Assembly (NCBI GenBank): GCA_947626635.1 | Contig: CANQSY010000004.1 | Span: 1-55,376 of the forward strand | Direction of reading: 5' to 3' | DNA length: 55,376 nucleotides | Origin: an uncultured Akkermansia sp. | GTDB lineage: Bacteria > Verrucomicrobiota > Verrucomicrobiia > Verrucomicrobiales > Akkermansiaceae | Part shown: positions 26,567 to 31,949 of the stretch, piece after piece | How positions within the stretch are numbered: position 1 is the first letter of the stretch | Layout: every line of letters begins with the position of its first letter | The notes under the pieces: generated by a model | What the model was told of the DNA's origin: nothing | What the model saw: the letters and a program-made list of their open reading frames with translations, nothing else | Databases searched by the model: none | Translations under genes and position numbers: made by a program

Positions 26567-27649
26567 TCACTCGTCACCGAAGGAAATGCCGATTTCCTTG
26601 GCGGCTTCAACGAGCTGACTGTTGCCATCCACAAGGTGGAGAGAACGAACGGCATCCTCGATGGGCATAGAAATGATTTCATTGTGCTCAAGCGCCACCG
26701 TGTCGCCGAACTTACCCTCCGCAATGAGATCAATCGCCTTAGCGCCGCAGCGTACGCCGAGCACACGGTCGAAGGGGATAGGAGCGCCGCCACGCTGTAC
26801 ATGACCCAACACGCAGTAACGGGTCTCAATGCCGGTGATGGTTTCCAGCTTGGTGGAAAGGAAGGAAGCGATTCCACCGAGACGCACCTCGCCCTTGGTC
26901 TCTTCATCAAGAGTCAGCAACTTGCCACCGATCTTGGCTCCCTCGCTCACGACAACAAGAATCTCGCGCTGACCAAGAGCCTTGAGCAGCTCCACCTTGC
27001 GCACGATCTCCTCTAGCTTGAACTCTATTTCCGGAATCAAGATGACGTCCGCGCCACCGGCTATGCCGCCGTAAAGAGCGATCCAGCCCGCATGGCGTCC
27101 CATAACCTCCACCACCATCATGCGCTGGTGAGCGTCTGCCGTCGTGCGCAGTCGATCAAGGTTGCTACTCACCACCGAGACAGCAGTCCAAAATCCAAAG
27201 GTGTAATCCGTAGAGCCGAGATCGTTGTCTATCGTTTTCGGCACGCCGACGATAGGAAGACCAATCTGGCGCAGCTCCAAACCAATCGTCTGGGATCCGT
27301 CTCCTCCCACGACGATGAGGGCCGAGAGGTCAAGCCGCTCAACCGTCTCGCGGCTCTTTTGCAGCACCTCCTCAGCAATTTGCAGGCGTCCGCCTACGCC
27401 GCTCTTCACGGTAAAGTTTCCCTTATTCACCGTGCCGAGAATCGTGCCACCCTGCGAACGGATATTGAGGCAGTTGGCCGGCGTGAGGATACGCCACCTC
27501 TCATTGTCCGGCGTGGATAGCAACCCCTCAAAGCCATCGTAAAATCCATAGACTGTCCAACCGCGAGCTGTAGCGGCTCCCACCGCTCCCTCAATGACTG
27601 CGTTGAGACCGGGGCAATCGCCTCCGGCGTTGAGTATTCCTATGTTCAT
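26567..27649 (-). CDS. pfkA: 6-phosphofructokinase with intact active site (probably ATP type)
   Basis: Phosphorylates fructose 6-phosphate. The 360-residue protein has the PFK core: NAGGDCPGLNAVIEG, GGTILGT, VVGGDGSQ (Asp117, Gly118), PKTIDND (Lys138, catalytic base Asp141), VEVMGRHAGW (Arg185), VVSEGAKIG, and VLGHVQRGG. Gly at the position after the first Asp is the ATP-type residue (PPi enzymes have Asp there), whereas Lys138 is shared with PPi and trypanosomal-type enzymes, so ATP use is likely but not certain. It is the last gene of the nanA operon, 15 bp after the S11-like gene, and closes the route from sialic-acid-derived fructose 6-phosphate into glycolysis. Confidence 0.92.
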   Translation of the reverse strand: MNIGILNAGGDCPGLNAVIEGAVGAATARGWTVYGFYDGFEGLLSTPDNERWRILTPANCLNIRSQGGTILGTVNKGNFTVKSGVGGRLQIAEEVLQKSRETVERLDLSALIVVGGDGSQTIGLELRQIGLPIVGVPKTIDNDLGSTDYTFGFWTAVSVVSSNLDRLRTTADAHQRMMVVEVMGRHAGWIALYGGIAGGADVILIPEIEFKLEEIVRKVELLKALGQREILVVVSEGAKIGGKLLTLDEETKGEVRLGGIASFLSTKLETITGIETRYCVLGHVQRGGAPIPFDRVLGVRCGAKAIDLIAEGKFGDTVALEHNEIISMPIEDAVRSLHLVDGNSQLVEAAKEIGISFGDE

Positions 27650-27664
27650 GGAAGTAATGAGTGA

Positions 27665-28615
27665 TTATTTAGGTACGGCGATAAATTTTGTTTTATCAGA
27701 GAAGTCGGCTGTCTTCTGCCAGTCCTCCCATGTTTTCCAGCAGTCGCGCAGCAAAAGGCTGGCCACCTTGTAGCGGCTCTGCGAGGTGTGCGCGCCCAGG
27801 ATGACAATCAGCAAACGCTGCGGGTAGGTGTCCTCCTTCCCGGTTTGCGGATTTTTGAGCTTCACGGAAGCACGGTTGGCAGACGCGAGCAAACAGGCAC
27901 CGGCAGAGGCAGAACGAGCCGCCCTCACTCCGTCTACTGAGCCGTAGCTGAGCATCTGGTTGGAATTCAGAATGGTCACGGTGCGGGAGTGATTGACCGT
28001 GGCAACGTAGCTGCGCTGCGAACAGATGCTGCGGAACCCGGGCTTCTGCATGGCGTACATCCCCAGCTTGGCCATATCATGCGTATCCGATTGGGTGATG
28101 ACAGCGCCGCTGGAGCCTTTGAAGCGGGTCGATTTCATGCCGATGGCACGTCCCATCTGGTTCATCTGAGCGACGAAAGCGCCCTCAGGGTCCGCTGCGT
28201 TGATGGTGGTCCCACATGCGTGCGCCAGGGTTGCCGCGCAGGCGCTGTCATCCCACATGATGGTAGAATGCAGGGCATCGCGTAGTGAAATGGTATCACC
28301 GGGCTTGAGCTTGAGCAGATTCGTCTGCGGCCATCGACAAGCCGACGCCGGAACGGTGAGCTGCTTATCCATGTTGATTCCCCGGGCATTCACCCAATCG
28401 AGCACCACGAGTGCCGTCGCCACATTAGCCAGCATCCCTACGGGACGCAGCTCATTAGGATTGCCCGTATAGAGAATGCGTCCCGAGTACGTCTCTATGG
28501 CGAGATAACTGGGTACGCGCTCTGTCGGTGAGGACGGCGTCGGATTGAGCTCCGAGCACGAGGCTCCGATCAACCCCACCAACGCCCATACGACAATGTG
28601 AAATTTTACCCTCAT
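27665..28615 (-). CDS. S11 peptidase (DacA/PBP5-like) lipoprotein lacking catalytic motifs
   Basis: A 316-residue protein with a lipobox (LIGASC, lipidated Cys20) and the body of a D-Ala-D-Ala carboxypeptidase: GMLANVATALVVLDW, LTVPASA, LKPGDTISLRDAL, MNQMGRAIGMKSTRF, and VDGVRAARSASAGACLLASA. The three catalytic motifs are changed. SxxK is M61…N64 in a block that otherwise aligns residue for residue (RPVGMLANVATA against the usual RPPASLTKMMTA), SxN is S114-A-C, and KTG is R221-A-A. It is thus probably not a peptidase; it may bind glycan strands or act as a regulator. Its ATG overlaps the stop of the upstream PFK paralogue (ATGA), so translation is coupled. Confidence 0.85.
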   Translation of the reverse strand: MRVKFHIVVWALVGLIGASCSELNPTPSSPTERVPSYLAIETYSGRILYTGNPNELRPVGMLANVATALVVLDWVNARGINMDKQLTVPASACRWPQTNLLKLKPGDTISLRDALHSTIMWDDSACAATLAHACGTTINAADPEGAFVAQMNQMGRAIGMKSTRFKGSSGAVITQSDTHDMAKLGMYAMQKPGFRSICSQRSYVATVNHSRTVTILNSNQMLSYGSVDGVRAARSASAGACLLASANRASVKLKNPQTGKEDTYPQRLLIVILGAHTSQSRYKVASLLLRDCWKTWEDWQKTADFSDKTKFIAVPK

Positions 28616-29748
28616 TTTTCTACAGTCTCTTGCTTGACCTCGTGTTCACGCAACGCATCCGGTTTGCGGTCGCCGAATATGATGCCCAAATCGCGAGCTG
28701 TGTGCAACAACTGGCTATCTGTACGCACCACGCGCGGCTCACGGATGGCATCGTGGATAGGGATGTGTCCGACGTTGAGCCCCTGCAGCACCAGCGAGCA
28801 ACCAAAGATATTTTTCTCAATAAGTTTGACGGCCTCTACTCCGAAACGTATCCCGAGGATGCGATCAAAAGAACAGGGGCTGCCGCCGCGCTGAGTATGC
28901 CCCAACACGCAGTAGCGCGACTCGATGCCGGTCATTTCTTCCAGTGCATGGCACAGGCGGTTGCCGATACCGCCAAGTCTCTCCTCGCCGTTGTCCTTAT
29001 TGCGCACGGTGATGAGTTGTCCGTTAAAGCGGGCGCCCTCCGCCACGACGACGATGATTTCCCGCTGTCCTGCCTCCTTACGAGCCTTCACGCACTCCAC
29101 CACGTTCTCCAGTGAATACGGAATTTCCGGAATGAGCACCACATCCGCAGCAGAGGAGATACCGCTATGCAGAGCGATCCAGCCGGAGAGATCACCCATG
29201 ACTTCGATCACCATGATACGCTGGTGCGCATTCGCCGTCGTCCGGATGCGGTCAATGGATTCCGTCACCACGGAAACAGCGCTCTGGAAACCGAACGTAA
29301 AATCCGATGCCGGGCAGAGATCGTTGTTGATCGTCTTGGGGATAGAGATAACGGGGAGTCCCTCCTCGGAGAGCAGACTGGCCGTGCGGGCGGAGCCGTT
29401 GCCGCCGATGACGGCAAGAGCCTGCAAGCCAAGCGCGGTTATGGTCTTCTTCGCCTTCGCCATGGTAGCGGGCTCAACCTGGGCTCGCCCCAGCTTGTTC
29501 ACCTGGACAGCAAAATTCCCCGTGCTCGTTGTACCCAAAATCGTGCCCCCGAGGGAGCGGATCTTATGAGTCTTGATCGGGGTGAGAATCTCGTACCGCC
29601 GACCCCCCTCTATGGGCAGCAAGCCCTCAAAGCCATCATGGAACCCGATCACGCGCCAGCCGCGACTGTATGCGGCCGAAACAAAACCTTCAATAACTGC
29701 ATTGATGCCCGGACAGTCGCCGCCGGAATTGAGAATGCCTATAATCAT
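28612..29748 (-). CDS. Phosphofructokinase paralogue with replaced catalytic residues
   Basis: A 378-residue PFK-family protein, collinear with the intact paralogue at 26567–27649 (NSGGDCPGINAVIEG, GGTILGT, FTFGFQSAVSVVTESIDRIRTTANAHQR, VLGHTQRGG). Key positions differ. The GGDG motif is GGNG (Asn117), the catalytic base in TIDND is Asn (PKTINND, Asn141), and MGR is MGD (Asp186). In E. coli PfkA the matching Asp103, Asp127 and Arg171 serve Mg-ATP binding, catalysis and substrate binding. It may be inactive and act as a regulatory partner of the active PFK, or use a different chemistry. The start at 29748 is set by the family N-terminus (MIIGILNSGGD). It is 11 bp after the epimerase gene. Confidence 0.88.
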   Translation of the reverse strand: MIIGILNSGGDCPGINAVIEGFVSAAYSRGWRVIGFHDGFEGLLPIEGGRRYEILTPIKTHKIRSLGGTILGTTSTGNFAVQVNKLGRAQVEPATMAKAKKTITALGLQALAVIGGNGSARTASLLSEEGLPVISIPKTINNDLCPASDFTFGFQSAVSVVTESIDRIRTTANAHQRIMVIEVMGDLSGWIALHSGISSAADVVLIPEIPYSLENVVECVKARKEAGQREIIVVVAEGARFNGQLITVRNKDNGEERLGGIGNRLCHALEEMTGIESRYCVLGHTQRGGSPCSFDRILGIRFGVEAVKLIEKNIFGCSLVLQGLNVGHIPIHDAIREPRVVRTDSQLLHTARDLGIIFGDRKPDALREHEVKQETVEK

Positions 29749-29759
29749 GGTTGTTGGAT

Positions 29760-30959
29760 TCAGTTGGTAGGATGTAATGGAGCCGCCGCCGGAATGGCGC
29801 CGAGGAAATGCGCGCAATTCCACATCGCGCGTGGGTGATGGAAGAAAGATTTCCAGAGAGACCCTTTGAGTCCGTTGGCGGGACTGCCGTCTCTCTCGCA
29901 GTACCCGTACCACTCACCGTGCTTGCTGTCCTGCAGGTGGGAAAACGACCACTCATGGATTCTCTCGTGCCACTGCGCATACTTCTCATCTCCCGTCACG
30001 ACGTAGGCCAGGCATGTCCCGATCAGCGCTTCGTCATGCGGCCACCAAAATTTCATGTTGTGCCAGTACTCCTGGACAGGTTTGCCGTACACATCCGTGT
30101 AGTAAAGCAAACCGCCATGCAACGAGTCCCACCCGCGTTCCAACGACCAGTCAATCATCTTGCATGCGATTTCCACAAGATGGCTATCTCCGCCGCGGAT
30201 TTGAGATTCCGCCAGCAGGAACCATGCCCCCTCAATGGCATGCCCCGGATTCTGAGTACGCTCATCAAAGTGATCGATGATGCTTCCGTCCGGCGCCACA
30301 TTCTCCAAAACGGCCCGTATGTCCTCGTGCAAAAAGAGCCTCTTGAGGTCCGCCACGCAGCGGTCAATCCACCCCGTGTACACTCCCCCATCCTCCCCAA
30401 GGTATTTACGCAACTCCTGACAGGTCACCAGCATAATCATGCGGCAGCCTAAGTTCTCCGTCGGTCGCTTGCCCGTTGTCTTCGGCACCATGCGTCCCGG
30501 CGTGAAGAAGATGTCCGCAAAAAGGGAGAACCAGTGACGGGCGCGCTCAGCGCTGTGCGGATCGCCGGTAGCGCCATAATGGGCGGCCCACGCGATGGCG
30601 GCGAAACACTCGCTGTATGCGTAGCGTCGCTTGCGCAAGGGAGTCCCGTCCTCTGTTACGTGGAAGAAAAGACGTCCATCTGATGGATCCGTACACTTTT
30701 GCTCAATAAATTGAAGCGCACTCTCCGCCCAGCGCAGCCATTCCGGCTTCTGCTCAATGCTCACGTACATCGTCAGCAGCATCCACGCCATGCGCCCTTG
30801 AGCCCACACGCTTTTGTCGCTGTCCACCATCGTACCGTCGGCATCGAAGCAATGGTACAGCCCGCCGTGTTTCTCGTCCACGGCGCGCGGGAACCAAAAG
30901 GGAACAATCTCATTGAGAAGCTTGTCCCTGTAGAACTTCCCGAGCTGTTGGGTATTCAT
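29760..30959 (-). CDS. N-acylglucosamine 2-epimerase
   Basis: Interconverts N-acetylmannosamine and N-acetylglucosamine, the step after sialic acid cleavage in organisms that use an AGE-type rather than NanE epimerase. The 399-residue protein has the (alpha/alpha)6-barrel signatures of the family: WFPRAVDEKHGGLYHCFDADG, WAQGRMAWML, YAYSECFAAIAWAAHY, GHAIEGAWFL (catalytic His region), and WWPHDEALIGT. It begins 24 bp after nanA and ends 11 bp before the PFK paralogue. Cellobiose 2-epimerases share the fold, but the nanA neighbour argues for ManNAc/GlcNAc. Confidence 0.92.
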   Translation of the reverse strand: MNTQQLGKFYRDKLLNEIVPFWFPRAVDEKHGGLYHCFDADGTMVDSDKSVWAQGRMAWMLLTMYVSIEQKPEWLRWAESALQFIEQKCTDPSDGRLFFHVTEDGTPLRKRRYAYSECFAAIAWAAHYGATGDPHSAERARHWFSLFADIFFTPGRMVPKTTGKRPTENLGCRMIMLVTCQELRKYLGEDGGVYTGWIDRCVADLKRLFLHEDIRAVLENVAPDGSIIDHFDERTQNPGHAIEGAWFLLAESQIRGGDSHLVEIACKMIDWSLERGWDSLHGGLLYYTDVYGKPVQEYWHNMKFWWPHDEALIGTCLAYVVTGDEKYAQWHERIHEWSFSHLQDSKHGEWYGYCERDGSPANGLKGSLWKSFFHHPRAMWNCAHFLGAIPAAAPLHPTN

Positions 30960-30983: not shown

Positions 30984-31907
30984 TTATTTGTTGATTGCCC
31001 AGTCGAAGAACCCTATGGCCTTCAGTTCATCCTTGAGCGCAGCCACGGTCGCCGTATCCGGCGTTCCCATCGGCAAGCGCGCCGGACCGAGATCGACCCC
31101 CCACCAGCCCATGATAGCCTTACAGCACCCCATGTAGCCCTTGGCGGCGATGATGTTGATCATCTTGACGGACAACTGCTGCAGGTGCCGCGCCTCCTTC
31201 ATATCTCCCGCCTCAAAGGCGCGGATGAGGTCTTGGTAGAGCTTGGGGGCGTAATTGAACGAGGAGCCCACACCGCCCTTGGCGCCCGTGGCCAGCGCGG
31301 CGAGGAACCACTCATCCACCCCCCACGGGATATCGTACTTGCCGTCCTCAAAGTTGAGCGCTTCCATGTAGAGCGCCAGATCCGGGTTGGTAAACTTGAC
31401 CCCGCAGAAATTCGGGATTTTCTTGGCCGCCGCAGCAATCACCTGGCAAGGGTTGAACGCTACATGCGTCAGCGCCGGGATGTCATAGAAGTAATAGGGA
31501 AGCTCCGGTGCACCGCCGGCCTCATACGCCAGACAATCCACAAGCGCATCGACACTGCCCGGCTTGAAGTAACAGGGCGAGTTGCTCGCCGTGGCCACCG
31601 CGCCGCACTTTACCGCGTACTCTGCCAACTCCCGTCCGTCATAGACGCTGTTGCCCCCCGTGTGAACGACGAAATTGATGCCGTGTTTTTTGGAGGCCTC
31701 GCCCCACGCGGCCATGTTCTCCTTTCTCTCGGCAAGCTGCATGTGGGCCGATTCACCGGTCGACCCGGTGATAAACACCAGCTTGATACCCTGAGCAGCG
31801 AGAAACGCTGCCTGTCCGTCCACTGCATCTGGGTTGCAGCTCCCATCGGCCCTCATCGGGGTATGGGATGCCGCCACCAGCCCATGTAATTTCAACTCGG
31901 TCTGCAT
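30984..31907 (-). CDS. nanA: N-acetylneuraminate lyase
   Basis: Aldolase splitting sialic acid into ManNAc and pyruvate. The 307-residue TIM barrel of the DHDPS/NAL family carries FITGSTGES, the catalytic Tyr in YYFYDIPALT, and the Schiff-base Lys in CGVKFTNPD; the latter two blocks are typical of NAL rather than DapA. The ATG at 31907 was chosen over an in-frame TTG 12 bases upstream. It is the first gene of the operon nanA–AGE–PFK-like–S11-like–PFK, so released ManNAc would be epimerised and enter glycolysis. No sialic acid transporter, NagA or NagB gene is in the window. Confidence 0.93.
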   Translation of the reverse strand: MQTELKLHGLVAASHTPMRADGSCNPDAVDGQAAFLAAQGIKLVFITGSTGESAHMQLAERKENMAAWGEASKKHGINFVVHTGGNSVYDGRELAEYAVKCGAVATASNSPCYFKPGSVDALVDCLAYEAGGAPELPYYFYDIPALTHVAFNPCQVIAAAAKKIPNFCGVKFTNPDLALYMEALNFEDGKYDIPWGVDEWFLAALATGAKGGVGSSFNYAPKLYQDLIRAFEAGDMKEARHLQQLSVKMINIIAAKGYMGCCKAIMGWWGVDLGPARLPMGTPDTATVAALKDELKAIGFFDWAINK

Positions 31908-31949
31908 AGTTCCAATCAAAGGGGGGTTCCCTTCCCCTCTTGCCTCTAG

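Follow-up and report, generated by a model that had tools for sequence, protein, structure and literature searches.

The PFK-fold protein P0001 of an uncultured Akkermansia sp. is, on a modest balance of the sequence evidence, probably a catalytically dead subunit with a predicted capacity for F6P binding; it would assemble with and regulate the active phosphofructokinase (PFK) encoded two genes downstream, and so act on a central step in sugar catabolism. Its gene lies on a stretch of 55,376 nucleotides, here called the window (contig CANQSY010000004.1, assembly GCA_947626635.1). A preliminary description of this DNA had raised the possibility of a regulatory pseudoenzyme, and the pseudoenzyme half of that proposal is well supported by a fixed replacement of the catalytic base, an intact F6P pocket, purifying selection and an apparent operon with an active paralogue. 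The genes and codons concerned are the following:

26567..27649, minus strand: P0002, the partner PFK; 360 aa, with GGDGS, PKTIDND and MGR motifs
27665..28615, minus strand: Peptidase_S11/D-Ala-D-Ala carboxypeptidase-like gene (dac) between both PFKs; fast evolving
28612..29748, minus strand: P0001, the PFK-fold pseudoenzyme; 378 aa, ATG start, open reading frame without internal stops
29760..30959, minus strand: AGE, N-acylglucosamine 2-epimerase-family gene directly upstream of P0001; PF07221 above cut-off
30984..31919, minus strand: nanA-like gene of the DHDPS/NAL superfamily; best NCBIfam match N-acetylneuraminate lyase
29521..29523, minus strand: codon of Thr76, at E. coli position 73, beside Arg72
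29398..29400, minus strand: codon AAC of Asn117, at the E. coli Asp103 position
29326..29328, minus strand: codon AAC of Asn141, at the E. coli Asp127 position, the general base
29191..29193, minus strand: codon GAT of Asp186, at the E. coli Arg171 position

Active-site residues of P0001

P0001 is 53% identical to the collinear P0002. Alignment to PfkA from NC_000913 places the three differences named in the preliminary description correctly: GGNG (Asn117), TINND (Asn141) and MGD (Asp186) occupy the positions of E. coli D103, D127 and R171, at which P0002 has Asp, Asp and Arg. A fourth change, beyond that description, is Thr76 at E. coli position 73, which is found in 45/45 orthologues, while 40 of 42 partner PFKs carry Lys. 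Residues D129, G104 and S105 are retained in P0001, as are the seven F6P residues T125, R162, M169, E222, R243, H249 and R252, which P0002 shares. The cross-subunit residues R162 and R243 are among those kept. By the usual site assignments for E. coli PfkA, T125, M169, E222, R243, H249 and R252 are F6P-site residues, and R243 reaches into the neighboring subunit's site in bacterial PFKs. E. coli-type effector-site residues are mostly not conserved in either P0001 or P0002. A 2025 review (PMC12203962) gives Asp127 the established role of general base in bacterial PFK and has R162 reach into the site of the neighboring subunit. P0002 looks self-sufficient by its residues and is predicted to be an active, ATP-dependent enzyme. 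Just past TINND, P0001 has one extra residue, an invariant Cys at residue 145 (29314-29316); it is present in 120/120 of the best 120 of 7,945 homologues and absent from the active paralogue.

The three named positions are conserved to different degrees. Among the best 120 of 7,945 homologues (76 to 100% identical, P0001 included), Asn fills position 141 in 120/120. Position 186 carries Asp in 116 sequences and Asn in the other 4, and at position 117 there are 67 sequences with Asn, 45 with Ser, 7 with Asp and 1 with Gly. This list is ranked by similarity to P0001 and is therefore biased toward look-alikes; the counts cover 120 of 121 proteins, P0002 being kept apart. Independent checks are provided by a set of loci with 45 nonidentical orthologues and by a motif census. 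The residue alignment of the locus set contained 77 pseudoenzyme and 49 active rows, reduced to 45 and 42 after identical sequences were dropped, with 4 rows set aside (two PPi-type PFKs, L003 and L144, one small PFK, L143, and a repeated E. coli row); among the short active rows, four carry a flag and the others appear as gaps. The catalytic-base position is Asn in 45/45 of these orthologues, position 186 is Asp in 42 and Asn in 3, with Arg171 in 0/45, and position 117 is Asn in 23, Ser in 15, Gly in 4 and Asp in 3. All seven F6P residues as well as Gly104 are invariant in 45/45. Of the three positions singled out earlier for a conservation check, Asn141 is thus fixed and Asp186 nearly so; position 117, where Asn, Ser, Gly and Asp all occur, is not fixed but relaxed. 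The most divergent orthologue (genome G222, 74% identical) combines a kept Asp103 with Asn127 and Asp171, suggesting that loss of the base preceded the relaxation of position 103.

Comparison with other PFKs

The base change in the P0001 orthologues is far from chance when set against 109 other PFKs (42 of the partner type, 6 of the single-copy type, 15 from the order, 41 from other phyla and 5 small PFKs): Asn at position 127 occurs in 0/109 and Asp in 109/109. The other changes have counterparts among the 41 PFKs from other phyla, where position 103 is Asn in 8, position 171 is His in 18 and Asn in 1 and position 73 is Thr in 11, always together with Asp127. Two further PFKs of the family (L199 and L200) combine Gly or Asn at position 103 with Asp127. 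Since Asn103, His171 and Thr73 are found in PFKs keeping Asp127, the argument for a dead enzyme is carried by the base, and the changes at positions 103, 171 and 73 do not by themselves appear to be marks of inactivity. Besides the base, the pseudoenzyme clade has its own residues at E. coli positions 16, 73, 122, 153 and 173 and at P0001 residue 84, a clade-specific site being defined as at least 95% fixed in the pseudoenzyme clade with another residue in at least 80% of the active, single-copy, family and order groups. Sites 122 and 173 adjoin the changed motifs in sequence. The P0002 type shows clade-specific changes of its own, for example at E. coli positions 108 (Thr to Ile), 141 and 267.

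P0001 scores above the curated cut-off of the PFK family PF00365, consistent with a PFK fold, and reaches 324.3 against the NCBI ATP-PFK model NF002872 (cut-off 253). Its score against the long PPi-PFK model TIGR02477 is 68.7 bits, under the cut-off of 587.95. The GGDG motif with Gly104, as opposed to the GGDD motif of the PPi type, is interpreted here after PMC12203962; a PPi-dependent enzyme is rejected in view of the kept Gly104 and the low PPi-PFK model scores. The AlphaFold model of P0001 based on a wider alignment has a pLDDT of 88.3, compared to 64 on a shallow alignment, and predicts a full PFK fold. A Pfam search of P0001 detected no added DNA-binding or other Pfam domain.

Genomic context and selection

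The genes nanA, AGE, P0001, dac and P0002 are separated by 24, 11, -4 and 15 bases, with the ATG of dac overlapping the stop of P0001 by 4 bases, and this close spacing suggests that the five-gene cluster is one transcript. The best NCBIfam match of the AGE gene is AGE (319.4 bits, under the model cut-off of 600), and the nanA-like gene scores 125.4 bits against the N-acetylneuraminate lyase model, under the cut-off of 281. The source genome (2.16 Mb, 155 contigs) contains three PF00365 matches, namely, P0001, P0002 and a long PPi-type PFK on another contig. It also encodes nagB (TIGR00502, 252.8 compared to a cut-off of 236.9) and a putative ROK-family sugar kinase. Judged by gene content, the nanA-like and AGE genes upstream and nagB and the ROK-family kinase elsewhere can supply F6P.

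The comparison of loci covers 39 from named records out of the best 80 loci, below which the matches fall to 47% identity and to other phyla. Titles name Akkermansia, Akkermansiaceae or Candidatus Akkermansia in 37 of these records and an "uncultured bacterium" in 2. Isolate names point to goat, sheep, deer, buffalo, cattle and horse gut samples, and the names "Lapin" and "intestinigallinarum" suggest rabbit and chicken hosts. The order nanA-AGE-pseudoPFK-dac-PFK is found in 38/39 loci; the remaining one (L041) is truncated by a contig end inside the pseudoenzyme gene. The sialic-acid setting assumed in the preliminary description is borne out for the clade, with nanA-like and AGE genes directly upstream in 39/39 loci.

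Median NG86 dN/dS values are 0.131 for the pseudoenzyme, 0.093 for the active PFK, 0.117 for nanA, 0.090 for AGE and 0.343 for dac. The two PFK values derive from 38/40 pseudoenzyme and 39/40 active sequences (39 loci and the window), restricted to pairs with a dS of 0.1 to 1.5 (448/703 and 486/741, respectively). The earlier statement that the gene is under selection with its fold signatures kept holds, with a dN/dS of about 0.13 and F6P residues invariant in 45/45. The dN/dS of dac is about three times that of its neighbors, yet its position is kept in 38/39 loci, and dac is also found beside the single PFK in 9/9 loci of relatives.

Partial correlation of divergence is 0.41 between the pseudoenzyme and the active PFK (0/999 permutations as high) and 0.51 between the pseudoenzyme and dac. 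Codivergence is hence not specific to both PFKs, operon history can explain the signal between them, and the mirror-tree approach was set aside as evidence of PFK-PFK contact. Distances of nanA and AGE (33 loci) correlate at 0.86 with each other, at 0.37 to 0.43 with those of pseudoPFK and dac and at 0.64 to 0.71 with those of the active PFK, which hints that the two halves of the cluster differ in history.

Distribution and phylogeny

Of 76 genomes belonging to the window's genus, 58 carry the pseudoenzyme (bit score of at least 597), and in 57 of these 58 carriers, a P0002-type PFK lies ∼1 kb downstream on the same contig and strand; the exception is G139, where a contig end truncates the gene. 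The match is free of internal stops in 55/58 carriers. G016, G307 and G001 count one stop each, which is probably the natural end, since their open frames measure at least 372 aa. The counts of 69, 58, 57, 18 and 17 genomes in this section were made by hand on the basis of bit scores, with sequences read for part of the genomes. The DNA pattern for PKTINND occurs in 51/69 sampled genomes of the same genus and in 1/317 other genomes of the order; this one match (G209) lies on a 4,652-base contig without a PFK match and is taken as chance. Phylum-wide, the pattern is present in 9/387 genomes, all within the genus. A PKTINND motif in a PFK was therefore not found outside the genus among the 317 genomes of the order and the phylum-wide sample of 387. 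These counts are lower bounds, because genomes were sampled and the pattern misses true members such as G222, and rarer or E. coli-type (PGT) variants elsewhere are possible.

The pseudoenzyme is absent from 18/76 genomes of the genus; related PFKs can accordingly do without it. Sixteen of these 18 noncarriers have one PFK of P0002's family (11 read, all with Asp127), and 17 have an E. coli-type small PFK of about 321 aa (10 read, all with Asp127). G034, a noncarrier that is 76% complete, has a PPi-type PFK only. No small PFK occurs in the 58 carriers among the matches listed to an E value of ∼6e-17, every small PFK scoring at 2.4e-28 or below. This mutual exclusion follows an apparent single split of the genus and for that reason looks like one event. 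Of nine noncarrier loci examined, three show nanA-AGE-dac-pfk without the pseudoenzyme between AGE and dac, and six show dac-pfk, with nanA or AGE not found in the stretch fetched. One cluster with a single-copy PFK is named for Akkermansia sp. N21169.

In phylogenetic trees, the pseudoenzymes form one clade (100/100) outside the active and single-copy PFKs (98/93). A constraint tree joining pseudoenzymes and active PFKs gives an AU p value of 0.041 with family outgroups and 0.083 with order outgroups. The trees sample 14 of 45 pseudoenzyme and 14 of 42 active rows (15 each in the family-outgroup tree), chosen by length and identity. Derived residues are shared by active and single-copy PFKs at 5 sites, by pseudoenzymes and single-copy PFKs at 1 and by pseudoenzymes and active PFKs at 0, a pattern that points in the direction of the trees. 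A recent duplication in the carrier clade only is tentatively rejected, with the outside position of the pseudoenzyme clade (98/93) and both AU values as counterevidence. The simplest reading, likewise tentative, is a duplication in the genus stem and loss of the base, followed by loss of the pseudoenzyme in the single-copy clade. Long branches meet in the PFK tree, as flagged by a treekit warning, so that the date of the duplication is tentative and moderately supported. The stem branch of the active-partner clade is long (0.35), as if this clade had changed after the pair formed.

Possible functions of P0001

With the base gone, two further charged transfer-site positions changed in most orthologues and the sugar pocket untouched on both sides of the interface, P0001 fits a subunit required to bind F6P or FBP without transferring phosphate. 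A structural filler, whose mixed tetramers with the active PFK would adjust only how much of that enzyme there is or how stable it is, without ligand sensing, would be compatible with the gene pairing and the kept cross-subunit residues R162 and R243; it is very improbable, as its own F6P pocket (M169, E222, H249, R252 and T125), needless for a pure scaffold, is also invariant. An unlikely but still serious candidate is a sugar-phosphate sensor that works on its own: P0001 would form dead homo-oligomers unmixed with the active PFK, bind F6P or FBP and act on a target other than the paralogue, such as a different protein, RNA or transcription. F6P residues that stay invariant while the base has changed and the location beside nan-like genes agree with such a sensor, and with an identity as low as 53%, the PFKs may each self-assemble separately. 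The adjoining P0002-type PFK in 57/58 genomes, with the single exception cut by a contig end, and the lack of any added domain in the Pfam search speak against it.

Decay of a redundant gene copy can be dismissed. The variable position 117 and a dN/dS slightly above that of the active copy would agree with decay, but it is refuted by the conservation pattern: genus-wide long open frames, a dN/dS of 0.13, a fixed Asn141 and an invariant sugar pocket. Changed or weak chemistry would mean that Asn127 is tolerated and that the enzyme slowly phosphorylates F6P or another sugar phosphate or performs the reverse reaction. The kept PFK fold with Gly104, Ser105 and Asp129, the strong selection, the NF002872 score of 324.3 against a cut-off of 253 and the base-keeping PFKs with similar changes at positions 103, 171 and 73 are in its favor. 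Moreover, with Gly104 and Ser105 kept and Asp103 present in 3/45 and 7/120 sequences, nucleotide binding and some remaining activity are both possible. Such chemistry is nevertheless rather unlikely: none of the orthologues read retains the general base, a role in which Asp127 is established for bacterial PFK (PMC12203962), and the unchanged F6P pocket does not suggest a new substrate.

In the preferred reading of P0001 as a regulatory subunit, the lone protein would carry out no phosphoryl transfer, and P0001 and P0002 would form mixed tetramers. The retained sugar pocket of P0001 would serve as an effector site for F6P or FBP, and its occupancy would shift P0002 between high- and low-affinity states. 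Such regulation could match glycolytic entry to the supply of amino sugars (sialic acid/GlcNAc). The net effect may be either activation or inhibition.

Relation to known systems and significance

Bacterial PFKs are textbook homotetramers; PFKs regulated by a dead duplicate are known in eukaryotes. PfkA of E. coli and Geobacillus forms a homotetramer with Asp127, Asp103 and Arg171, unlike P0001. At the level of residues, P0001 corresponds to a eukaryotic regulatory half, being a duplicate of a catalytic PFK with the base lost and the sugar pocket kept. In the alignment, the second half of muscle-type PFK has TVSNN for TIDND and MGG for MGR. According to the 2025 review, the C-half of PFK in yeast and mammals, which is inactive, has lost the ATP pocket, and its F6P pocket has turned into a sugar effector site (PMC12203962). 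P0001 resembles this C-half of PFK-1 as a duplicated PFK unit in which catalysis was apparently lost at the same site. It differs in being encoded by a separate gene, with one gene between, whereas the eukaryotic halves are fused in one chain, and in its substitutions (Asn/Asp), with Asp129 and Gly104 kept. Given the genus-only distribution, P0001 would have originated independently of the eukaryotic C-half.

Other systems offer partial parallels. Plant PFP consists of a regulatory alpha and a beta subunit, encoded by separate PFK-family genes and assembled into a heterotetramer (PMC3653104). The separation of regulatory and catalytic genes would be similar in P0001/P0002; in contrast, plant PFP is of the PPi-dependent type, and P0001 scores 68.7 compared to 587.95 on the long PPi-PFK model. 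The yeast PFK alpha/beta hetero-octamer likewise illustrates coassembly of paralogous subunits (PMC12203962). Its alpha and beta subunits each own an active-site N-terminal half and, unlike P0001/P0002, are no dead/live pair of simple subunits. The prozyme of trypanosomatid deoxyhypusine synthase, according to PMC3663545, is a dead paralogue that activates its partner 3,000-fold in a heterotetramer. The likeness lies in the catalytically dead paralogue; the prozyme belongs to an unrelated enzyme of a eukaryote, and activation of P0002 by P0001 would be hypothetical. A bacterial dead-PFK partner was not found among the top-ranked matches of the open-licence literature (titles and starts of abstracts), which is no proof of absence.

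It is tentatively proposed, at a little under even confidence, that an Akkermansia lineage independently arrived at the way eukaryotes control glycolysis, with a two-gene hetero-oligomeric PFK in which a dead paralogue with an F6P/FBP effector site would be coexpressed with sialic-acid catabolism and would replace a second active PFK. Among the matches listed, the few orthologues with a name from their source are all called "6-phosphofructokinase," most of them with the addition "ATP-dependent"; these names, and a model NF002872 that passes P0001, may lead metabolic models of these gut bacteria to include a likely nonenzyme. If the proposal is true, a bacterial dead/live pair would open the evolutionary step before gene fusion to direct test, in proteins of 360 to 380 aa.
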